From positions 1-35,125 of the IMG/VR virus record IMGVR_UViG_3300030329_004722: a stretch of DNA of 35,125 nucleotides; one strand, 5' to 3'. The position numbers and the translations under genes are program-made. Below the pieces are notes generated by a model. It did no database searches, had not been told where the DNA came from, and saw nothing but the letters and a program-made list of their open reading frames with translations. This document shows, in pieces, positions 578-33,132 of this stretch. Source of the DNA: a virus. Numbering within the stretch: the first letter of the stretch is position 1; each line of letters starts with the position of its first letter.

Positions 578-2014
578 CTATGCCCTCAAGTACTGTAAAG
601 AGATCCACATCCGGTTTGCGATCCCGTTGGCGCTGCCGTTGGTCCCCGTCGAATCAGCAATCAGGCGCACGATGTCGTTGACTGCCAGCTCGACGAAGAA
701 TGTGCAGGCTGTGTTGCTGGTGTCGTCTGTCTGATTCCTCGCATAGCTGGACGCTCGACTCGGCACAATCTCAGAATATGACACACCGCTATTAACACTC
801 CGGTCGACCCAGCAGTCCACCGTCCGTCTGGCATTAGCATTGGTGTCGAAATAGACGGAATACGAAATCGAATATACGCCCGCTGTGAGGATCGTTATCA
901 ACTCGCTATTGCGACTGTAGTTAGCGTCCTCGAAGTTGCTCACATCAAATATGATCGGCGAGGCGGTTGTCGATATCAGTTGATTCGAGGAGCGCAAATA
1001 CTGCGCTATATTGGCTCCCGAGCTGCCTCCCCCAGGAATATTGATCTCCGCAACTCCGCCCCCGGAATCGCTCGCCGTCACCCCAGCGCCGGTGAAATTG
1101 AGCGTCGAATGAGGCGTGTTGGGGATATTACTCCCGCCATCCTGCACGTTAACAGTGGACCCACTTCCCGGCGGCCCCTGCGGCCCGGTGGCACCGCTCG
1201 CTCCATCCTTGCCAATCGTTTGAATTGATAGCCGCAGCGAGTCGGCCAGTGTGTTGATTTGATCCGACCCGTCAACGACTTGGCCACGAACTCGCAGCAC
1301 GTCCGTCGCATCCAATTCGAGAATGGCAAATGAGGCGTTGCCGCCCTCCTCCTCTCCCGAATCGTGAAACCACCGCGCCCGCGTGCCGCCGACCTCTGCG
1401 AATCCCCCGCCCGAGTCTAGCTCTAGCCAGATCTCTACCGTGTTGTCGTCCGTCTCGCTCTCGTTCGACGAACAACCAAAATCCACTCGATAAGTCGAAG
1501 CGGTGTTGATCGTCAACTCGTTAGACGCGAGCGTGAACGCCGCATCGGTTATGCGTGCAGTGTTGAAAGGCAACGTCGAGGCGGTTGTTGTGATCCCGGC
1601 GTAAGCAGTGTCATGGTAGTAATTGGCGAAGGCCGCCCCACCTGTGTACTCCACATCTGCGGTCCCGCCGCCTGAATCAGTCGCTGATAGCCCGATAAAA
1701 TTGAGTTTAGAAAACGCAGACCCGACAGCAACACCGCCCTCATCTACCGCTATAGCAATAGAGCCCGGAGTCTCTATGAACGTATCCATCGCCGTCAGGC
1801 TCTCAGCCTGTGTGAGCGTCACCCCATCGACTTCAAGCAGCACATCCCCTGCCGTTATGTGGGCCAGAAGCTCCGCATCGTCCTGAATCTCTGAGACGCT
1901 TGCAAACTCAGTCAGCGTAACAGACCCCGATGCCGGTATCTCGTTGTCCGGAACTGGGAGCTGTGTCAACGCTAGAGCGCCGGCCGTCTGATTGGAAGCT
2001 ATGATGACACTCAA
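578..2014 (-). CDS. Tail fibre tip/adhesin with collagen-like linker
   Basis: About 478 residues. A TTG start at 2014 is favoured because GGAGGG lies 5-6 nt upstream and the TTG overlaps the upstream stop as TTGA; a GTG at 2026 is possible but has no ribosome site. The protein has two beta-rich modules resembling C1q/TNF-like jelly rolls, one in the middle and one C-terminal, separated by a short collagen-type stretch (GKDGASGATGPQGPPGSG). A Gly-rich segment ending in LNF-G and SDSGGG/TDSGGG appears before each module, so the protein looks built from a duplicated unit. Such trimeric tip proteins bind host surface glycans or proteins. Placement directly downstream of the long fibre gene supports a receptor-binding role. 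The fold assignments are by eye. Confidence 0.8.
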   Translation of the reverse strand: MSVIIASNQTAGALALTQLPVPDNEIPASGSVTLTEFASVSEIQDDAELLAHITAGDVLLEVDGVTLTQAESLTAMDTFIETPGSIAIAVDEGGVAVGSAFSKLNFIGLSATDSGGGTADVEYTGGAAFANYYHDTAYAGITTTASTLPFNTARITDAAFTLASNELTINTASTYRVDFGCSSNESETDDNTVEIWLELDSGGGFAEVGGTRARWFHDSGEEEGGNASFAILELDATDVLRVRGQVVDGSDQINTLADSLRLSIQTIGKDGASGATGPQGPPGSGSTVNVQDGGSNIPNTPHSTLNFTGAGVTASDSGGGVAEINIPGGGSSGANIAQYLRSSNQLISTTASPIIFDVSNFEDANYSRNSELITILTAGVYSISYSVYFDTNANARRTVDCWVDRSVNSGVSYSEIVPSRASSYARNQTDDTSNTACTFFVELAVNDIVRLIADSTGTNGSANGIANRMWISLQYLRA

Positions 2015-4782
2015 GGCGCCCTCCACTTGATTCTGACCGTGCCGATGACGTGACGAGAAGCATTCGGACCAGCGTTTCGGACTGCTAGGATGTCTCCCGC
2101 ACTAAATGTGCCATTTGCGTTAGTGGTCTCGCCACTGGTCGATGTGCTTGCAAGCGTGACGATCGTGCTACCTGATGCCACCACTTGAAATGCCGCTGCA
2201 TCCACGTCCTGCCTTGTATACGTGAGAGAAACTATGGTTCCGTCCCACTCTGCATTTCTGCCCAGTGTCGCACTCATGGCCCGATTGCCAGCTCGGTAAT
2301 ATGCCCCGCTTCCCGTGTTACCGTTTCGGTTGAATTGCAACTCAGAAGTCTCGACACTAAGCCAGGCACTTCTCGTTGCATCGTACTCCATCAGCATTTC
2401 GAGCACTGTGTTGTAGTATATATCCCCACCCGCTGGAGCTGGGAGCGTCGGATCGGCTGCAAGCACTCCATAGTGACGCTGGCCGCTGATGTCCACAGTC
2501 CCCGTGATAGCAAGCTCGGTGCCGCTCCATGTCAGATCTGCTGAGCCGCCGAAAGAGCCCGCACTATTGAACTGCACGGAGTTTAGCGGAGCCCCAGGAG
2601 CTCCACCGGCCGGCGTTGCCCACGTCGCATCACCTCGCAAGAATAGGCTCTCTTGACCAGCTGTTGGCTTTAAGACAAGCCCGTCAAGGCCGTCACTTAC
2701 CGCCGTGCATCCGACAAATTCGCTGATGGGGTCGACTCCAGTGCTCAGATGGCTGGAGCCATGTCCCAACGGAGTTTGTGCGTCTCCAAGCAGCCCAGAA
2801 AGGCCCGTGACGTCGATCTCATCTCCACCCCCATTCTCATGGCTGGCTGCATGTGACAAGGGAGTCTGGGCATCTGCCAACAATCCGGAAAGACCAAGGA
2901 CTGATATCTCATCCCCTCCACCGGACTCATGACTTGCGGCATGAGATGTTGGAGTCTGGGCATCGGCCAGCAGTCCAGACAAACCCGTGACGTCGATCTC
3001 GTCCAAGCCTCCATTCTCATGGCTGGATGCATGCGCCGTTGGGGTCTGTGGGTCTCCAAGCAGTCCCGATAGGCCTGTGACGTCGATCTCATCTCCACCC
3101 CCATTCTGGTGGCTCGTGGCATGAGATGTTGGGGTCTGAGCATCGGCCAGAAGACCTGAGAGACCCGCCACACTGATCTGGTCACTGCCCCCATTCTCAT
3201 GGCTGGCTGCATGTGCGCTTGGGGTCGTGGTCGCTTGAGAGACAAGCGTAGCGCCGGATCGGACCAACACTTCGCCATCGGCAACGGCACCAATAACAAG
3301 CTGAGTCGGTCCGCTTGTCTCGGTTATTGCTGCCACCGTGGGATCTGGCATCGTGCCGGCCAAGTCCCCGCCGACCTCCGTATAGAAATTCTCGCCGGCG
3401 ATCAGAAGAGTCCCGAGATTGTTCAGAGGTGTGGTGCCTAACCAGCGCGTGGAGAGGTTCACGTAACAAGTCGCCCCGACCGAAATGCTAAGGCCGATCA
3501 CACCCTGGCATTTGCAGTCTTGAAGCTCAGCCTGCCCCGCTGTCACAGAAATCCCAACTAGGCCTGAGCACAAGCAGTCTCGGGCAATAAAAAATCCCGT
3601 TGTGGACGATATAAGACCGTTAGCGAGCCCAACCCCGCGACAGTCCACCATGTCCAACGTAACCCAATTCTGGGCTGAGACTCCGCTGCCGAGCACCGAA
3701 ACCGCGTTGACGCTGCCGCTCAGGCCCGTTAGCAGCAAATTGCGTCCGACACTGGTGCTGGATGTCGTACCCGGAAACGAGACAAGCGTTCTCCCAGAGG
3801 AAGTCCCGGCTTCGATCGTCAGATTCTCGAGACTAGAGCTATCACCCATCGTGACAACGGTGGACGCCGTGAGCACTGTGGACGATATCACGCACCGTAG
3901 CCGGTCAATCCCAGCGAGCGTCACACCCGTTGGCAGTACAAGCCCGGTCTCGTCATATGTTCCAGGGAGCACATACACAAGATCACCACTCACAGCCACA
4001 GCAAGAGCGGCGCCGATGGTCAGAAACGGTAGGTCAAGACGGCCTGTCGTGCCTGTCCCGTCGTTGCCAGCTGGCGATACCCAGATCACATTGTCTGTGT
4101 CTACATTGGAGCTCGGAAGCGGAGACCAAGTGCCATCTCCCAGCAGTATGTGACCTTGTTGCCCAGCTGCCGGAGGAGGCACCAAACCGTCCGTTCCCGG
4201 CGCCACGCCTGTCGCTCCGCCCATGAGAGCAATGGGATCGCTTCCGCTGCTCAGATGGCTGGCTGCATGGGTCGTGCTGGCTGCACTTAGATTGGCCCTG
4301 GCGTCGGTCGCATTGGTGGCACCCGTGCCACCCTCGCTCACAGGGATTGGAAATCCTACGGCGGAATCTGCAAGGAGCTGGCCCGTCGTGCCGTCCCAGA
4401 TTGCTATGGCTTCATCCGTACTACTGCCCGGACCGACAACATCCCCAGCACCTGCCGAGCTCCAAGTACCGTCTCCAGTCAATACCAGGTTCTGCTCTCC
4501 AATGGCAGGCGCTGGCACAAGACCCGAATCGCCAGCCGTTAAAGCACTGGCCCCGATCATCAGTGGCACATCAAGATTCGCCAAAGGAATCGGAAACCCA
4601 ACCCCGCTGCTTTTGATACACTTGCCCGTGGAGCCGTCCCAAATGACGATATCTTCATCCACAACTGGCGGGAATGGACCCTTGACGTCTCCCGTTCCAC
4701 CGTGGCCAAGTCGCACAATGTATACCGATTCAGTCAGCCTGACCGTGTACTCATTGACATCTATTTGAACCACTGTGCTCAC
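2011..4782 (-). CDS. Long tail fibre with beta-helix and 30-residue repeats
   Basis: A 923-residue fibre. The start is GTG in a GTGA overlap with the upstream gene. The N-terminal ~220 residues contain repeated Gly-rich fibre motifs (GDVVGP, IWDGTTG, SEGGTGAT) typical of tail-fibre shafts. Residues ~235-480 begin with WVSPAGNDGTGT and run through short beta-rungs, as in right-handed parallel beta-helix (pectate-lyase-like) fibres that bind or cut polysaccharide. Residues ~515-680 carry a tandem 30-residue unit (GLSGLL.D.QTP.SHA.SH..GG.DEI). The C-terminus is a Gly/Ser/Thr-rich tip. The protein presumably trimerises and mediates adsorption. Whether the beta-helix is enzymatically active cannot be judged. 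Confidence 0.88.
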   Translation of the reverse strand: MSTVVQIDVNEYTVRLTESVYIVRLGHGGTGDVKGPFPPVVDEDIVIWDGSTGKCIKSSGVGFPIPLANLDVPLMIGASALTAGDSGLVPAPAIGEQNLVLTGDGTWSSAGAGDVVGPGSSTDEAIAIWDGTTGQLLADSAVGFPIPVSEGGTGATNATDARANLSAASTTHAASHLSSGSDPIALMGGATGVAPGTDGLVPPPAAGQQGHILLGDGTWSPLPSSNVDTDNVIWVSPAGNDGTGTTGRLDLPFLTIGAALAVAVSGDLVYVLPGTYDETGLVLPTGVTLAGIDRLRCVISSTVLTASTVVTMGDSSSLENLTIEAGTSSGRTLVSFPGTTSSTSVGRNLLLTGLSGSVNAVSVLGSGVSAQNWVTLDMVDCRGVGLANGLISSTTGFFIARDCLCSGLVGISVTAGQAELQDCKCQGVIGLSISVGATCYVNLSTRWLGTTPLNNLGTLLIAGENFYTEVGGDLAGTMPDPTVAAITETSGPTQLVIGAVADGEVLVRSGATLVSQATTTPSAHAASHENGGSDQISVAGLSGLLADAQTPTSHATSHQNGGGDEIDVTGLSGLLGDPQTPTAHASSHENGGLDEIDVTGLSGLLADAQTPTSHAASHESGGGDEISVLGLSGLLADAQTPLSHAASHENGGGDEIDVTGLSGLLGDAQTPLGHGSSHLSTGVDPISEFVGCTAVSDGLDGLVLKPTAGQESLFLRGDATWATPAGGAPGAPLNSVQFNSAGSFGGSADLTWSGTELAITGTVDISGQRHYGVLAADPTLPAPAGGDIYYNTVLEMLMEYDATRSAWLSVETSELQFNRNGNTGSGAYYRAGNRAMSATLGRNAEWDGTIVSLTYTRQDVDAAAFQVVASGSTIVTLASTSTSGETTNANGTFSAGDILAVRNAGPNASRHVIGTVRIKWRAP
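2740..3232 (-). repeat. 90-bp tandem coding repeats in the fibre gene
   Basis: Copies of a 90-bp unit lie end to end; the conserved SH..GG element recurs at about 2743, 2833, 2923, 3013, 3103 and 3193. Each encodes a 30-residue shaft module with HA.SH, GG.DEI and GLSGLL. The nucleotide copies are close enough to recombine, so fibre length may vary. The outermost copies are the most diverged. Confidence 0.85.
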
Positions 4783-6311: not shown

Positions 6312-6338
6312 CCTATTGCGAAACCGTTTCGGAATTGT
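6312..6338. promoter_or_regulatory. 27-bp operator-like dyad, site 1
   Basis: The arms CCTATTGCGAAAC and GTTTCGGAATTGT flank a single central base. The core CGAAAC/GTTTCG is perfectly symmetric and the outer parts are imperfect. It overlaps the stop codon of the initiator gene and lies next to the ribosome site of the resolvase gene. It shares the pattern TATTnCGAAAnnnTTTCGnAAT with sites at 9292 and 31652. Confidence 0.7.
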
Positions 6339-7077
6339 AACAACTCTCTCCCGAGCCGTCCAGGACCACACGACATGGCCAAGGCACCCGGCTCCGATAT
6401 CTGTCCTCAAACCAAGCTTGGTCAAAAGGGTCTCGTGTGGACAAGATCATCACGTCCTTGTCTCTCCCTATAAACCGATACGTGCCACCGCTGCCAAATA
6501 GCTTTTCGTACTCCGAGAACCTGTCCCGGAGTTGTTGCTCTTCTTGCTGCTCCATCTTCAAGATTTTGGGAGATTCCTCGCGCGCGCTCCCGCGCAGGCG
6601 CGTAAGGTTAGTTCTAGTTTTAATTCTATTCTTTGTATTAATAGGATCGCGCGAGACAGATTTGTCGCACTTTTCGACAGATTTGTCGCAAGTCTCGACA
6701 GATTTGTCGTACTCTCCGACAGATTTGTCCGACAGATTTGTCGTACCTGGTTCGGTCAATCGGTAGGCTGGTTTTCCATTGACCTTTGTGAAGACAATGT
6801 AGCCATGCTCTGCAAGCAACTGGATAGCTCTTTCCACACTCCTGGTGTGTAGTCCGCAAGCATGAGCGATCGTCTTCAGCTTGTGAAACGGTGGACAGTT
6901 GGCTTTGTAGTTGTGTCGGTCCATCAGGAAGCAAAACACCGGCAAAGCCTTTCTGATCCTCTTGTCCCCATATGCCTTGGAAAACAAGGCCCGGTGAGCT
7001 GCCTTCTGTTTGGATATCTGAGATGATGTTCGCGTCTTTTTTGGATAGCTATCAAGAATTTGCGCACCCGTGCCCAT
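6313..7077 (-). CDS. Lambda-O-like replication initiator
   Basis: A 254-residue protein whose ATG has GGAGG upstream. Residues ~63-107 form a winged helix (FHKLKTIAHACGLHTRSVERA, then LAEHGYIVF), like the origin-binding domain of phage O-type initiators. Residues 117-141 contain DKSV four times with a 7-residue period, encoded by the iterons; the next part (~146-162, INTKNRIKTRTNLTR) is encoded by an AT-rich stretch. The C-terminal part (~175-250) may contact a helicase or loader. The order DNA-binding domain, origin-encoded linker, C-terminal domain is that of lambda O, whose gene also contains its own origin. It follows parB on the same strand. There is no clear sequence identity to O, so the call rests on architecture. 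Confidence 0.8.
   Translation of the reverse strand: MGTGAQILDSYPKKTRTSSQISKQKAAHRALFSKAYGDKRIRKALPVFCFLMDRHNYKANCPPFHKLKTIAHACGLHTRSVERAIQLLAEHGYIVFTKVNGKPAYRLTEPGTTNLSDKSVGEYDKSVETCDKSVEKCDKSVSRDPINTKNRIKTRTNLTRLRGSAREESPKILKMEQQEEQQLRDRFSEYEKLFGSGGTYRFIGRDKDVMILSTRDPFDQAWFEDRYRSRVPWPCRVVLDGSGESCYNSETVSQ
6607..6743. other. Putative replication origin: five iterons plus AT-rich element
   Basis: The 13-bp sequence GACAGATTTGTCG occurs at 6655, 6676, 6697 and 6731, and a 12-bp version (last base changed) at 6718. The first four are exactly 21 bp apart (two helical turns); the fifth is 13 bp further. Each copy is itself a CGACA/TGTCG-type dyad. Beside them, 6607-6643 is about 81% A+T and could be the unwinding element. 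Reading along the initiator gene, iterons come before the AT-rich part, as in lambda ori inside gene O. The fifth iteron is in another reading frame (encoding TTNLS rather than DKSV), which argues that the DNA and not the peptide is selected. Confidence 0.82.
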
Positions 7078-7233: not shown

Positions 7234-8538
7234 CTACCACTTACCCTGAGCGCCCCTCTGAGCCCTGGCAAGAACCGACTTGTCTCGACTCATTGCGTGG
7301 ACTGCAAATCCCTGCTTCTTTCCCCTGCTTGCAATCGCTCCGCATTGATGATCCCGAAGGTGTGGGTCCAGCAAGGACCGGCGCTCCCCTCTCGGTATCT
7401 CCGCTAGGAACTCATCCCAGAAATCCCATACCCCGCGGTAAGTGAGATGCTTCTTGTGATGTGTTGGGATCCGCTCTGGGTTTGGACTCCATGCGACCAT
7501 AATCCGAATGATTGCTGGCTGTCTGAGCTCACCAACAGACAGTACATCAACCAGGTGAAACTCCCGCAGAAACACGCGCAGCGCTTCCGAGAGCTGTGGC
7601 CGTGACAGCAGCGTATACACAATTCCCGTCTCTGGATTCAGACAGTGTTTGGAGAACTCTGAGAGCTGGCCCCAGTAGCCTTCTCCGTCTTCGTCTGGCA
7701 TCGGTCCTTCCGATGCGATCATGTCTATGGAGCCGGCCGGGATTGTGTCCTTGCCTGAGTATCTCCAGTCGGAGTTGTGCCATGTAATTGAACCCGCTTC
7801 AGCCCGCGCAGCTTTCCACTCTGCAACCCGTTCTTTGATATACTTTTTCGCCTCTCCCACTTTCATGTGGTCAAGCATGCTCAGCTCTTCTGAGATGGTC
7901 GTCTGATCATCTTCCTCCAATCGGCTGATCTCAATCAAAAGAGTGGTCGATTTGGCATAGGGCGTTTCTTTGAGAGTCTCCTTGGCATCGCGGCACAGCT
8001 TCTGTCCTACTTGCCTGAACTGCTCATATTTGCGCCGGGTCATTCTGACTTGTCGGGCAAGGTCCATGGTCGTCACCACCTCGCCTTCATCATCTGCTTT
8101 GAAGTTTGGATTCCCGCGGCCCCGCTTGGCTTGTCCGTCTCTGTAAATGATGGTTTCCCTGAGCGCTATTTGCTCGGCCTTCTGGAGTGCGGAGAGCTCC
8201 AGCCGTCTCAGGTTTGCATCGATCTCTAGAAGCTGCGCTTTTTCCTCTCCGAGATCCCGAAAGACAACCGCTTTGACTTTGTCCCATCCGAGCTTGTCCA
8301 CCGCTGCCAACCGGTGAGCACCGTCGACCAGCACAAAAGAGCCGTCCACCCTTCGGTTGACCACAATGGCCTGGAGCTGCGTGTTGCGCTCAATACTCTC
8401 TAGAAGCTCGTAGACAGCATCTTGATTGACCTCTCTGAGCCTGTCCTCTGGTACGTGAATATCATCTACCTCCAACCACCGAACGTCGCTTGATACATCT
8501 CCGAGAGCGTCAAGTGGGTTAGACTGCAACCCTGTCAT
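7234..8538 (-). CDS. parB: ParB-like partition protein fused to a degenerate methyltransferase-like domain
   Basis: 434 residues. Residues ~20-135 are a ParB/sulfiredoxin-type domain: VDGAHRLAAVDKLGW contains the G-x-H-R box and EIDANLRRLELSALQKAEQI matches the second conserved ParB box. Residues ~155-245 are helical with an HTH-like part (DLARQVRMTRRKYEQFRQV). Residues ~250-430 follow the order of permuted DNA amino-methyltransferases, but the catalytic DPPY position reads SEGP (IDMIASEGPMP, ~271-281) and the SAM-binding DPFxGSGT position reads DPHLRDHQ (~391-398). The fold may therefore be kept without catalysis. The ATG overlaps the parA stop as ATGA. The likely job is centromere binding for segregation of an extrachromosomal prophage; regulation of parA is also possible. 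Confidence 0.85.
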   Translation of the reverse strand: MTGLQSNPLDALGDVSSDVRWLEVDDIHVPEDRLREVNQDAVYELLESIERNTQLQAIVVNRRVDGSFVLVDGAHRLAAVDKLGWDKVKAVVFRDLGEEKAQLLEIDANLRRLELSALQKAEQIALRETIIYRDGQAKRGRGNPNFKADDEGEVVTTMDLARQVRMTRRKYEQFRQVGQKLCRDAKETLKETPYAKSTTLLIEISRLEEDDQTTISEELSMLDHMKVGEAKKYIKERVAEWKAARAEAGSITWHNSDWRYSGKDTIPAGSIDMIASEGPMPDEDGEGYWGQLSEFSKHCLNPETGIVYTLLSRPQLSEALRVFLREFHLVDVLSVGELRQPAIIRIMVAWSPNPERIPTHHKKHLTYRGVWDFWDEFLAEIPRGERRSLLDPHLRDHQCGAIASRGKKQGFAVHAMSRDKSVLARAQRGAQGKW

Positions 8539-9203
8539 TTTATCACCTCTTGGCTTAGAGCACCGTAGGCCAGCCCCCCGCTGGATTTTGGTGCATACAT
8601 GTGAATCGGCAAACCGGACCCTGGAGCTTCTGCGAGCCGGACATTTTCAGGTATTTTTCCCAGCACTCGGAAGCGCTGAGATATGGCGTGGATCGCATCG
8701 GACGTTAGCTTGCTCCGAAGTATCCGGCACACAACAACCCCAAGTAGATCGAGAGATGAGTTTTGGTGCTGCGCCATTTGTATGGAGTGCGACAAGTCGG
8801 CCAGACCACTCAGCGGCATGGTCTTAGGCTCCACGGGAACAATCACATCCACCGCGCTTCTCATTATCGCGTTGACCACCGGCCCAAATGTGGCTGGGGA
8901 GTCATAGAGCACGACGTCATAACCCTCCGGAGCTGGGAGCGTCTCTGGCTGTGCGAAGTACATCTGCTTGGAACCACCGATGATATCAATACCATGCCGC
9001 GTTTCCGGGACTGGCGTCTCTCCTGCTAACATCGCTTCGATCCCGCGCCCCTCTGCCCGCAACCACTGACTGGCGTTGCACTGTCCATCGCAGTCTATAA
9101 TCAAGACTCTCATTCCGCGCTGCACAAAACAGCCGGCGAGAGACACAACTGTGGTCGTTTTTCCCACTCCGCCCTTCTGATTTATTACCGCCAAACGTCG
9201 CAT
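8535..9203 (-). CDS. parA: ParA-family partition ATPase
   Basis: 222 residues from the ATG at 9203, chosen because GGAGGG lies upstream and the deviant Walker A box then falls at the N-terminus, as is usual; an ATG at 9233 has no ribosome site. KGGVGKTT is the deviant Walker A motif, IIDCDGQ is the Walker A' Asp region, and VVLYDSPATFG corresponds to Walker B. The length and lack of an N-terminal HTH fit small chromosomal/type Ib-like ParA proteins, which do not bind DNA specifically by themselves. It is the first gene of the leftward operon and is coupled to parB by a 4-bp overlap. It should move ParB-bound DNA along the nucleoid. Confidence 0.93.
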   Translation of the reverse strand: MRRLAVINQKGGVGKTTTVVSLAGCFVQRGMRVLIIDCDGQCNASQWLRAEGRGIEAMLAGETPVPETRHGIDIIGGSKQMYFAQPETLPAPEGYDVVLYDSPATFGPVVNAIMRSAVDVIVPVEPKTMPLSGLADLSHSIQMAQHQNSSLDLLGVVVCRILRSKLTSDAIHAISQRFRVLGKIPENVRLAEAPGSGLPIHMYAPKSSGGLAYGALSQEVIK

Positions 9204-9409
9204 CGTGTCGCCCTCCGTCACATTTATACGCATTCGTCGTGAATTTTACAAAATATATTTGCGCCAAGATCCAATAGTTTGCTAGAGTCTCCCTATTGCG
9301 AAACGATTTCGTAATAGGTGAGCCCAAAAAAAAGCGGTAACGGTTTGGCAAATGGTCCGAAAACTATTCGGGACAATTGTTGGACTGTTGAGATGTAGGG
9401 GGGAATGCC
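9204..9409. other. Divergent control region between parA and the early operon
   Basis: This 206-bp gap separates the leftward parA unit from the rightward early operon. It contains the dyad at 9292-9318, an AT-rich tract at 9240-9261 in the parA leader, an A9 run at 9325-9333, and a weaker bulged repeat near 9355-9373 (GTCCGAA ... TTCGGGAC). I could not identify confident -35/-10 pairs on either strand. Confidence 0.6.
9292..9318. promoter_or_regulatory. 27-bp operator-like dyad, site 2
   Basis: CCTATTGCGAAAC and ATTTCGTAATAGG flank a central G; 11 of 13 base pairs of the dyad match, making it the most symmetric of the three sites over its full length. It sits between the divergent parA and early operons, so a protein bound here could control both, or it could be a partition site next to parAB. 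Confidence 0.8.
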
Positions 9410-15645: not shown

Positions 15646-16029
15646 CTATTTCAAGCAGAATGAAACATCAACAAGACCGCCCGGACTGGATCCTTGCTTT
15701 AGTTGAATCTTCATCTGAGAGCCCCGAGCGTTTCCATTGTAGATCGTGGTCGCTTGGCTGGTTGTGACATCGGCCTCAGCCACCAGCTCAATCCAAGCCG
15801 CTTCCCTTGAGGCTCTTTCCATCACCCGGATCTTGGCATCCTGAACAGTGGCAATGGCCTGAACTTGCAGACTGATATAGGTCGCCGTGTCAAATGCCGG
15901 CCCCGTTGGATCTCCGCTCTCGTCTTCAAATTGGACGTCCACAAAAGCCGCCGTCGTGGGAGCCGCTGCAAGATAGCCCGATATGTAAGAGCCAGAAACG
16001 CGCTCCCCATTTGCCTGAGTAACACTCAT
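15646..16029 (-). CDS. Hypothetical tail-module protein
   Basis: 127 residues, beginning in an ATGA overlap with the LamG-like gene. It is alternating strands with little charge (YLAAAPTTAAFVDVQFEDESG, TYISLQVQAIATVQDAKIRVMERAS, TIYNGNARGSQMKIQLKQGS), compatible with a jelly-roll or immunoglobulin-like virion protein. No family is recognised. Confidence 0.72.
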   Translation of the reverse strand: MSVTQANGERVSGSYISGYLAAAPTTAAFVDVQFEDESGDPTGPAFDTATYISLQVQAIATVQDAKIRVMERASREAAWIELVAEADVTTSQATTIYNGNARGSQMKIQLKQGSSPGGLVDVSFCLK

Positions 16030-17321
16030 GATTCCTCCGTGATTTTCAGTGCATATGTGCTGATATTTGATACTGACTTTCTGTGTTGAACAAACCGCGC
16101 AACATCCACCGCGGCCGTAGTGACCAACATCCTACCAAGCCGGCCTGAGTAGAAGTTGGTGGTGCCGTCCACAGACCCACCGAAGAAACGCCCGCTGGCA
16201 TCTGCCCATGTCAATCCTGGGATGGCTGCTGTGATTGAATATTCCCCGTCGACATAAAGCCACATGTATTGGCCATCATAGGCGCCGACGATATCGTGAG
16301 CATTTGAATCAGCTGGCCTGGCTCTTGTCAGTGTCTGAAGTCCAGCGCTGGAATTCCACCGCAATGTCATCTGCCCACCGGTGAAAAAAATCTCAAGACT
16401 GGGCGTTGGTCCCTTCGAAACAAGGTGCTCTGTTGATGCACTGGTCGGACTGTCCGCGGCATATGTCACAGCCACCAGCCACGTAGTCTCACCGTTCATG
16501 TCAACGTTGTTGGTCTGGCACCACTCGGCCCCATTGAATTCAAATGCTGAAAACCGGGTATCGAAGAAGTCCACATCAGCCACCGGCGCCGCTCCACCGG
16601 CTCCGAAGAATAGCTGGGCATCATCCTGATCCCATCGGACCATTGTTGAACCAGTGACGAAGAGGCCAAGCCAAGGAGCTCCATAGGTCACCAGCTCAGC
16701 CAGATAACTGGACTGGTTGATGTAGTTGACCTCAGTGACTTGGACGGTGAAGAGCTCGCCCGAAGCGGCCCCACTGATCGCAGCTGTGACCCGGATTTGA
16801 TAGGCTTCTGGGATTCCACTCGATGTGATGTCAAGCTCCGGCATCACGTAAGCTCTGACGATCTCTCTTGAGCCCGTTGGACAGTCAAGGTTGAGCGTTG
16901 TCAGTGGCGTTCCAAGTGAGTCAGCCGGGAGACCATTGCGCGCTGCATCGAAGGTGATCTTGTAGATGTCCACAACCACATCCAGATTGGTGGCTTCCAC
17001 CAGGATTTCCAAGGCGTGGTACTGAAGCGTTGCCGTTGCATCCCAGATGGTGGAGTCCACTTCCGGCCGGCTTGGACGAAGGACCACCGGAATTGAATCC
17101 AAGTCTCTGTATGGCTGGGTGTTGGTCGCCGTGGCCACTGCGCTGGTGGTAGTCCACTGTCTGATTGTGCCATCATAGGCAAGGCCAGCCCTGGCCCCCA
17201 TGTTGGCCCATAGCCAATGAGCCGCACCTGCAACACGCTGAAGATCTTGCGCTTCAATGTAGTCATTGACCAAGTATTCAGCGACCGGCACTGACTCGAA
17301 CTCTAACGGCAGAAACTTCAT
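16026..17321 (-). CDS. Tail-tip protein with LamG-like carbohydrate-binding domain
   Basis: 431 residues. The ATG at 17321 forms the usual ATGA overlap; the longer frame would begin with TTG. Residues ~260-415 follow the concanavalin/LamG pattern: FNGAEWCQT, TTWLVAVTY, EHLVSKG, LEIFFTGGQMTLRWNS, HDIVGAYDGQYMWLYVDGE and GRFFGGSVDGTTNFYSGRLGRMLV. Such domains bind glycans in phage fibres and tips. The N-terminal 250 residues are beta-rich and may attach the domain to the tail. Likely an accessory receptor binder. Confidence 0.82.
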   Translation of the reverse strand: MKFLPLEFESVPVAEYLVNDYIEAQDLQRVAGAAHWLWANMGARAGLAYDGTIRQWTTTSAVATATNTQPYRDLDSIPVVLRPSRPEVDSTIWDATATLQYHALEILVEATNLDVVVDIYKITFDAARNGLPADSLGTPLTTLNLDCPTGSREIVRAYVMPELDITSSGIPEAYQIRVTAAISGAASGELFTVQVTEVNYINQSSYLAELVTYGAPWLGLFVTGSTMVRWDQDDAQLFFGAGGAAPVADVDFFDTRFSAFEFNGAEWCQTNNVDMNGETTWLVAVTYAADSPTSASTEHLVSKGPTPSLEIFFTGGQMTLRWNSSAGLQTLTRARPADSNAHDIVGAYDGQYMWLYVDGEYSITAAIPGLTWADASGRFFGGSVDGTTNFYSGRLGRMLVTTAAVDVARFVQHRKSVSNISTYALKITEES

Positions 17322-18124
17322 TGTGTACACCAAGCAGAAAAGCCGATGATGTCAATCCGGCAATCGTCCACATCCACAGAATCATCCACTCCGGACCCTG
17401 GCCCTGGAGCAGGGTAGGCCGGTGGGCCTGCAACGGTTTGTTGCTCCATCGTGAAGACAAGGTGAAACGGCTGGCTTCTGTCAAAGCTGCCGGTAACATC
17501 GGCCGAGAGCTTCCAGGTCTTTATCAACTGAACGTCGTGGCCGTTGCCCATGTCGATGTCCATCCACCCTTCGCGCATCATCAGATCAGCGCCGCTTGCC
17601 ACGTTGTTCTGGATGCCCACATGGAGCAGAAATGGTGGAATGAATGAATAGAGTTGCGGCCAATAGGTGGTAGGCACATCGGAGAAAGAAGCGCTTCCAA
17701 CCGATACTCCACCCTGCTGGATATCAATCGAGTAATTGACCAGTCCATCGACCAGCCAGTTGTTCAGGTCAACGTCTCCAGTCCTGAGAAAGGTATCGGC
17801 CGAGCTCGTCCTCTTGGCATGGCTTGCCACATACATGATGACGGCTTCCACCCGTGGATTGACATACTTTGTGTGGCACGTTGTCAGGTAGGAGCGTGGA
17901 CCGGCTCCCACAATCCAGGGATTTAAGAATGGATATTCCCGATCACCCCATGGATTGGACATGGTGCCTGTGTTGTCCAGCATTGTGGACAGTCCAATGG
18001 ATACACATTCCCGCCTGGAATAGAGCGTGTTGGAGTTGGTGGCCTGCTCTCCTGCTGCAACTGCTCCGGCTTCCCGCTCACTCTTTACCCGAGCATCATC
18101 GACGTTCACAAACTTGTTGCTCAT
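17318..18124 (-). CDS. Hypothetical tail-tip protein
   Basis: 268 residues, in an ATGA overlap with the gene before it. The centre is beta-rich (YSIDIQQGGVSVGSASF, PFLLHVGIQNN, WMDIDMGNG, VTGSFDRSQPFHLVFTMEQQ) and the C-terminus reads DDCRIDIIGFSAW. It shares with the neighbouring 302-residue protein the style of a beta-sandwich structural protein, and the two may be paralogues. No family is recognised. Confidence 0.75.
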   Translation of the reverse strand: MSNKFVNVDDARVKSEREAGAVAAGEQATNSNTLYSRRECVSIGLSTMLDNTGTMSNPWGDREYPFLNPWIVGAGPRSYLTTCHTKYVNPRVEAVIMYVASHAKRTSSADTFLRTGDVDLNNWLVDGLVNYSIDIQQGGVSVGSASFSDVPTTYWPQLYSFIPPFLLHVGIQNNVASGADLMMREGWMDIDMGNGHDVQLIKTWKLSADVTGSFDRSQPFHLVFTMEQQTVAGPPAYPAPGPGSGVDDSVDVDDCRIDIIGFSAWCTQ

Positions 18125-31651: not shown

Positions 31652-31678
31652 GCTATTCCGAAATGGTTTCGGAATTGA
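31652..31678. promoter_or_regulatory. 27-bp operator-like dyad, site 3
   Basis: The core ATTCCGAAA-TGG-TTTCGGAAT (31655-31675) is a perfect 9+9 dyad with a 3-bp centre. It lies within the leader of the portal gene and covers the likely transcription start. It shares its pattern with sites at 6312 and 9292. Confidence 0.82.
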
Positions 31679-31822: not shown

Positions 31823-32014
31823 GTGAAAACTAGATTGCTTACGACTGCCGAAGCGGCGGAACACCTCACTCTGTCCTGCAAGCAATTGGAGCGCTGGAGG
31901 ACCGATGGGGGAGGGCCGGCATTCGTACAACTGAGCGCGAAGATCATCAGGTATCGATTGTGTGATCTTGAGAGCTTCATTAAATCCAACATAATGCAAG
32001 GGGGACAACGGTGA
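31823..32014 (+). CDS. Small HTH protein, paralogue of the early HTH
   Basis: 63 residues with GTG start and GGAGG 7 nt upstream. LLTTAEAAEHLTLSCKQLERWRTDGGGPAFVQLS..IIRYRLCDLESFI is an HTH_17/AlpA-type winged helix, strongly similar to the protein at 9549 (shared LERWR, G.GP.FV, IRY...DL). It lies divergently from the portal gene and its dyad site. Its GTGA overlap couples it to the lipoprotein gene. It may regulate the cassette and the portal promoter. Confidence 0.85.
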   Translation: MKTRLLTTAEAAEHLTLSCKQLERWRTDGGGPAFVQLSAKIIRYRLCDLESFIKSNIMQGGQR

Positions 32015-33132
32015 GAGTGATTCTATTTTTGTTATCTGTTTCGATGCTTACAAGTTGCGTACATCGCAAGATTGACAAGTGCAACGTGCCAGACCCGCAT
32101 CCGGAGTGTCCGAAGTGCTTGGCAGATGAACCAGATCCCAGCTGCCCCAATTATGTAGCTCCGATGGATATGGCGGCTGATATGATGTTGCCCAATGAGA
32201 TGGACACAGGCCCAGACGCCGATATGACAACACCGGAAGATATAGGCTTGGACAAAGGTCCGGATGTGGACCCGAATGCCTGTGACCCGGCTTGCGAGGA
32301 TCCCACGGCGGTTTGTGATGAGGGTGTTTGCGTGGAGTGCATACTAGATGACGATTGCCCAGACGGCGTTTGCACAGACCAGAACGTTTGCGTGGAGTGC
32401 ATAGACGCTTGTGACTCTGGACACTGTTTTGAGAACGTGTGTGTAGAGTGCTATCAACAAAATCATTGCGGCCAGCAAAGGTGTCTTGTCGATCAAAACA
32501 TCTGTGTCGATTGCTTGGTTTCAGAAGACTGCATAAGCCCGGACGCTAGCGTCTGCGGACCGGCGAATGCTTGCGAGGCCTGTGTGGATGATGCGGGGTG
32601 TTTGGGCGTTGACAACCGATGTGATGAGGGTGTGTGCGTGGAGTGTACGATCGCAACCGAGGCCACCGACTGCGGAGGCAAGTCCTGCGACCCGGCGACG
32701 AATGAGTGCACGACGACCGACGTGGGAACGGTCGGAGTGTGTGAAGCGTGTGTCGCGGATAGTGAGTGTGGCATGAATGCGCGGTGTATCAAACTAAAGT
32801 TCCAGTCAATGACTGACCTCGGCGGATACTGCTTCAACACGTTCACATCGGGGTGCTCTCGGCCGTATGCATCGCGGTACAACTCCCCATCCGTTTCGGG
32901 AGCGCCGGCCGAGGACTATTGCGGGATTGATGTAACCCGAACAACGTGCGAGGCAATCGCTGACATGATTTCAGACACCTCGTGCACCTCTCCGGATGAC
33001 TGCGGAGTAATGGGTATCGAGGACGGGTTGTGCGAGACCGTGTCTGGCTTGAGCAACCGATGCACATATCGTTGTGTCAACGAGGCAGAGTGCAATCAGA
33101 ACCGGATCTGCACCGGGGGATATTGCCAGTAG
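32011..33132 (+). CDS. Cysteine-rich secreted lipoprotein (moron)
   Basis: 373 residues from GTG in a GTGA overlap. The N-terminus VRVILFLLSVSMLTSC ends in a good lipobox (L-T-S-C, Cys16), so the protein should be a lipoprotein. After an acidic linker (~45-85) come repeated Cys modules (CDEGVCVEC, CTDQNVCVEC, CFENVCVEC, CDEGVCVEC); 49 cysteines are present in all. The C-terminal third has a different cysteine spacing and more Ser/Thr. Proteins of this style are common on Myxococcota/Bradymonadia-type cells. As a phage gene with its own promoter on the opposite strand it suggests lysogenic conversion, perhaps surface exclusion, though receptor or virion roles are possible. Confidence 0.85.
   Translation: MRVILFLLSVSMLTSCVHRKIDKCNVPDPHPECPKCLADEPDPSCPNYVAPMDMAADMMLPNEMDTGPDADMTTPEDIGLDKGPDVDPNACDPACEDPTAVCDEGVCVECILDDDCPDGVCTDQNVCVECIDACDSGHCFENVCVECYQQNHCGQQRCLVDQNICVDCLVSEDCISPDASVCGPANACEACVDDAGCLGVDNRCDEGVCVECTIATEATDCGGKSCDPATNECTTTDVGTVGVCEACVADSECGMNARCIKLKFQSMTDLGGYCFNTFTSGCSRPYASRYNSPSVSGAPAEDYCGIDVTRTTCEAIADMISDTSCTSPDDCGVMGIEDGLCETVSGLSNRCTYRCVNEAECNQNRICTGGYCQ

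Follow-up and report, generated by a model that had tools for sequence, protein, structure and literature searches.

We describe a ParB-like protein from the parAB operon of a probable phage-plasmid, whose last ~185 residues appear to derive from a permuted beta-class DNA methyltransferase that has lost its DPPY motif and SAM loop and replaces the canonical ParB C-terminal domain. We place the probability of this reading at about 0.5. The protein is encoded in a 35,125-base stretch of DNA (IMG/VR virus record IMGVR_UViG_3300030329_004722), the whole of which is referred to here as the window. A preliminary description had proposed a ParB joined to a methyltransferase-like domain in which both signature motifs are lost, and this proposal is now backed by profile searches, profile-profile comparison and a modelled fold. 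Fusions of ParB to methyltransferases are common in phages, and why a partition/CTPase fold should be tied to DNA methylation is a standing question. A fusion without catalysis but with a ParA partner, whether gained or kept, would show that the methyltransferase scaffold serves ParB beyond methylation.

A ParA-linked ParB in a tailed phage

The window is a tailed-phage contig with genes for a terminase, a portal, a major head protein, a scaffold and a tape-measure protein. The window ORFs scanned included no recognizable integrase or CI-type repressor. The simplest reading is that it is probably a phage living as a plasmid. The parB gene (positions 7234-8538, 434 aa) lies on the minus strand, which the preliminary description had left unstated, and runs from an ATG start with zero internal stops. 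It is directly downstream of parA (8535-9233, minus strand), the parA stop and the parB ATG overlapping as ATGA. The 232-residue product of parA is a partition ATPase (phrog_164, 3e-37; AAA_31/CbiA) with an intact KGGVGKTT Walker motif. Its nearest relatives are all 30-34% identical, which is too distant to lead to a sister operon.

The N-terminal part of the protein is recognizably ParB. Residues 22-104 (8227-8475, minus strand) match ParB_N, the ParB-CTPase fold (PF02195, 3e-7; 30.8 bits against a cut-off of 26.3), and Box II, which reads GAHRLAA, keeps the P-motif arginine R76, invariant in the alignment. A central region follows at residues ~110-225 (7864-8211, minus strand), delimited by PHROG ParB families and alignments; these families reach residues 235-240, with phrog_3264 matching at 3e-26 over residues 19-235. 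A putative helix-turn-helix (TTMDLARQVRMTRRKYEQF) lies in this region, where a Pfam search returned no helix-turn-helix match. The canonical family TIGR00180 matches at 4.9e-11, which is under its cut-off. Beyond ParB_N, the Pfam matches consist of a sub-threshold DUF3322 alone, and a canonical C-terminal dimerization domain of the PF23552 type is absent from that search. The basic, ParA-stimulating peptide usual at the N-terminus of ParB is missing by eye. The closest N-terminal relatives are ParB proteins of Mu-like phages (~275-300 aa), with 26-33% identity over residues ~20-240, and they stop where the extra domain of the window protein starts.

Downstream of parB lies a gene for a replication-initiator-like protein (6313-7077, minus strand; HTH_36, 4e-10; phrog_270, 1.4e-6). 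Five near-palindromic iterons, CGACAGATTTGTCG, mostly at 21-bp spacing, were found as a repeat family within this rep ORF (6654-6746) and form a candidate origin; translated in the rep frame, they also appear as a DKSV repeat of the Rep protein. A separate 21-bp palindrome, ATTNCGAAANNNTTTCGNAAT, occurs in three exact copies in the window against 0.10 expected: upstream of parA (9295-9315, ATTGCGAAACGATTTCGTAAT), at the 3' end of rep (6315-6335) and beside the portal gene start (31655-31675). Each copy stands beside a gene start. We regard the three palindromes as candidate parS sites or candidate (repressor) operators. The palindrome is absent from a sister contig whose TerL is 91% identical and which spans TerL to the tail genes only, without the ParB region; between its terminase and portal genes, this contig has an Xre-like regulator in its place. 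In the phage-plasmid N15, SopAB works with several dispersed palindromic centromere sites, IR1-4 (PMC7205306). The window resembles N15 as a phage-plasmid with ParAB and few palindromic sites, here the three dispersed candidates. N15 SopB is not known to have a methyltransferase-like domain.

Ancestry of the C-terminal domain

The methyltransferase-derived domain was assigned to residues 250-434 (7237-7791, minus strand), its first half by sequence and the whole by a model, its fold and a column-by-column alignment. Residues ~240-434 gave no sequence match in Pfam, PHROG, NCBIfam or the PDB except at sub-threshold or chance level; against Pfam, the C-terminus returned nothing at E values up to 10, and the PF01555 profile was also silent in the window. 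Intact fusions were therefore collected: gp52 of Methanoculleus virus L4768, IMG/VR loci (L226-L230 and L255-L263) and bacterial loci (L212-L224). A consensus-like methyltransferase query for the family served as a search probe only, and our conclusions use the natural sequences retrieved.

A profile was built from the methyltransferase domains of 12 intact ParB-linked methyltransferases, with the window protein left out. Residues 240-360 scored 23.6 bits against it (E 1.6e-5 in 10,001 sequences), and the best of 10,000 shuffles reached 9.4. For the whole C-terminus the score was 20.8 bits, with a best of 9.8 in 10,000 shuffles. Profile-profile alignment by hhalign gave a probability of 91% (E 1e-6); with the sequence reversed the value fell to 0.2%, and ParA, as a second control, reached 0.1%. 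BLASTP against gp52 produced a co-linear alignment of residues 45-327 (E 0.004) that spans the ParB domain and the linker and extends into the methyltransferase. Judged by these alignments, residues 255-355 are homologous to ParB-linked methyltransferases.

The order of elements in the C-terminus is that of the permuted beta class. This order had been proposed for residues ~250-430; it stands by sequence for residues 255-355, and for the second half it draws on position and a guided model. Residues 356-434 alone gave no match with a local HMM and 0.1% with hhalign. A possible explanation is that the protein kept only the first methyltransferase half, the second being lost or swapped for unrelated sequence, and that the remnant is a tail or a dimer interface with no complete dead fold. 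The low model confidence and the weaker codon score in this half would fit such a history. We nevertheless consider it unlikely, though the most serious of the alternatives, since a global PSSM alignment of residues 356-434 gave a z of 2.0 and beat 241 of 250 shuffles (the other nine were equally good), H361, F377, G384, P392, A403 and G410 coincide with positions conserved in the family, the length suits a permuted methyltransferase, and the model puts the expected strands and helices in place.

That model, made with nine aligned sequences, has a pTM of 0.69 and a mean pLDDT of 65, with values of about 72-88 across most of the first half and about 40-68 in the second. Its best structural matches are M.MboIIA (1g60, Z 16.0), M.BceJIV (15.4), CcrM (15.1) and M.RsrI (14.5), and Foldseek gave 1.7e-8. 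The modelled fold is not independent evidence, because its alignment holds active enzymes, which pull the model toward their fold. Structure prediction guided by the alignment gave this methyltransferase-like model; prediction from the single sequence failed (pLDDT 35). Position and the alignment-guided model suggest that the second half may keep a Rossmann-like fold.

Both signature motifs appear to be gone. The DPPY position had been read as SEGP, and the alignment agrees, placing SEGPM (residues 276-280; 7699-7713, minus strand) opposite the TDPPY of the family, so that DPPY is replaced by EGPM. The DPFxGSGT position had been read as DPHLRDHQ; residues 391-398 (7345-7368, minus strand) do stand opposite [DE]PFxGSGT and contain no GxG, in an alignment that is positional and not significant alone. 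At these positions the window protein matches neither the motif IV pattern [DNS]PP[YFW] nor the SAM-loop pattern [DE]PFxGSGT. A frameshift concealing an intact motif was ruled out, DPFxGSGT being absent from the other reading frames. The protein retains 19 of 44 strongly conserved family columns, mostly structural or scaffold residues. Those changed include three residues of DPPY (D, P and Y), every one of the four FxGxGT residues tested and the acidic motif-II residue, now His 414. Met stands in for the motif IV aromatic against which a flipped base is held, and the stretch joining the halves lacks ~25 residues that relatives have. On the evidence of the alignment, the C-terminal domain of this ParB has lost both its catalytic motif, DPPY, and the glycine loop for SAM binding.

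Comparison with known ParB proteins and fusions

According to a 2025 survey (PMC12704722), fusion to N6/N4 methyltransferases is frequent among the ParB folds of phages, and among all ParB fusions only those with DUF3850 consistently adjoin parA. In Paracoccus phages, many ParB-methyltransferases lie upstream of terminase genes, and enzymes of the ParB-Tls locus are among them (PMC6536676). The phage fusions that we examined (PF01555; phrog_498; L226, L227, L228, L230 and L255-L263) share with the window protein a ParB_N domain, a helical linker, a permuted beta-class methyltransferase and a similar length, with homology detectable in the first half of the domain. They differ in two respects: the fusions keep DPPY and [DE]PFxGSGT and stand in loci without parA, whereas the window protein shows the opposite on both counts. 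Recognizable motifs were present in all 88 distinct fusion ORFs collected, and none had lost both; two that escaped a strict regular expression proved to be mild variants (DSFLGSGS in one, DFPY with DPTCGSGA in the other). No ParA match was found in the 32 fusion loci checked, several of which have short flanks.

Canonical ParABS ParB proteins (TIGR00180) have in common with the window protein the parA-parB operon and a ParB_N with the Box II arginine. They consist of ParB_N, a helix-turn-helix and a C-terminal dimerization domain, and it is this third part that the degenerate methyltransferase domain replaces. The nearest N-terminal kin, the orphan Mu-like ParB proteins of Thiobacimonas phage P1 and Sinorhizobium phage Aussie (phrog_3264), lack the methyltransferase-like domain and lie beside transposase genes, whereas the window parB lies beside parA. 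Judged by its motifs the window protein is not an N6_N4_Mtase, and judged by its C-terminus it is not a canonical ParB.

Neither the full-length protein nor its C-terminus, used directly as a query, retrieved a relative with this C-terminus from IMG/VR or from phage, plasmid and genome contig sequences. An N-terminal profile scan yielded 80 ParB loci, none with the methyltransferase-like domain of the window protein. In a sample of 398 genomes, 26 proteins matched ParB; most were of the Mu-like or coiled-coil type, and the domain was absent from all of them. Active ParB-methyltransferase fusions are known orphan phage proteins, and the new part is the dead, ParA-coupled version, known from one sequence. 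A separate observation concerns the collected fusions themselves, in which one ParB-type N-terminus (IPPLxxEExxxLE...DGHNRYEI) recurs in different phages (L226-L263, L242, L244) with a modular swap of partners, among them beta-class, MT-A70-like and other methyltransferase-like domains.

Possible roles of the dead domain

Beta-class methyltransferases often dimerize and bind duplex DNA, so the most parsimonious hypothesis is that the domain was reused for dimerization and DNA contact. ParB would bind NTP through its N-terminal domain and the centromere, perhaps the three 21-bp palindromes, through its central helix-turn-helix. The dead methyltransferase domain would stand in for the missing C-terminal domain, joining two subunits, gripping duplex DNA, or both, with no methylation. 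The pairing of a partition protein with an inactivated enzyme domain suggests that a dead enzyme was recruited into the partition machine, either as a structural element or to grip DNA. For a ParB coupled to ParA, a C-terminal module for dimerization and DNA binding is the simpler interpretation. The window protein offers a simple test protein for the role of the domain in dimerization, DNA loading and partition.

Retention of the domain for DNA recognition, also raised in the preliminary description, is a plausible possibility. Its companion proposal, sensing of methylation at a partition site, found no support: the scan of window ORFs recognized no methyltransferase that could write the mark, and the domain has lost the residues for base flipping and for SAM binding. 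Dead subunits of the methyltransferase family are known to act as nucleic-acid platforms, as in METTL14, and the model resembles DNA-bound CcrM and M.BceJIV, so that a degenerate, non-catalytic module giving site- or methylation-dependent binding at the partition site has precedents. We nonetheless judge such a recognition or reading module improbable, given that no mark-writing enzyme was recognized in the ORFs scanned, and given the Met in place of the aromatic that holds a flipped base, and the shortening of the inter-half segment, which is the usual place of target recognition in these enzymes.

Relaxed decay, in which a former ParB-methyltransferase anti-restriction protein no longer needs its methyltransferase part and lets it drift, seems very improbable: the second half is very divergent and selection on the domain is not measurable from a single sequence, but the ORF is intact with in-frame codon usage, structural residues are retained where catalytic ones are lost, and simulated decayed copies are rarely free of stops. 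For codon usage, the annotated frame was the best of six in both halves, with a lower score in the second. When unconstrained substitution was simulated until 40% of residues had changed, only 0.75% of copies were stop-free, and an intact ORF is therefore unlikely under unconstrained decay. Codon usage and the stop simulation argue for constraint; they are no substitute for a comparison of relatives, of which none were found.

A broader proposal can be made tentatively, as a possibility that we hold to be on the unlikely side: the protein may represent a class of ParABS centromere-binding proteins descended from the ParB-methyltransferase fusions of phages, which lost catalysis and captured ParA, its pseudo-methyltransferase having taken over dimerization and DNA clamping from the canonical ParB C-terminal domain in a phage-plasmid.

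Three further features of the window were recorded. Between the terminase and portal genes, a Cys-rich ORF (32011-33132, plus strand) with repeated CVxC-like units has no Pfam, PHROG or NCBIfam match. A phage protein encoded at 16026-17333 carries a laminin-G/concanavalin-like domain (PF13385, 3.5e-6) and is possibly a receptor or glycan binder. Four copies of a direct repeat, spaced at 90 bp, lie at 2749-3226 within a tail-fiber-like ORF (2011-4782).
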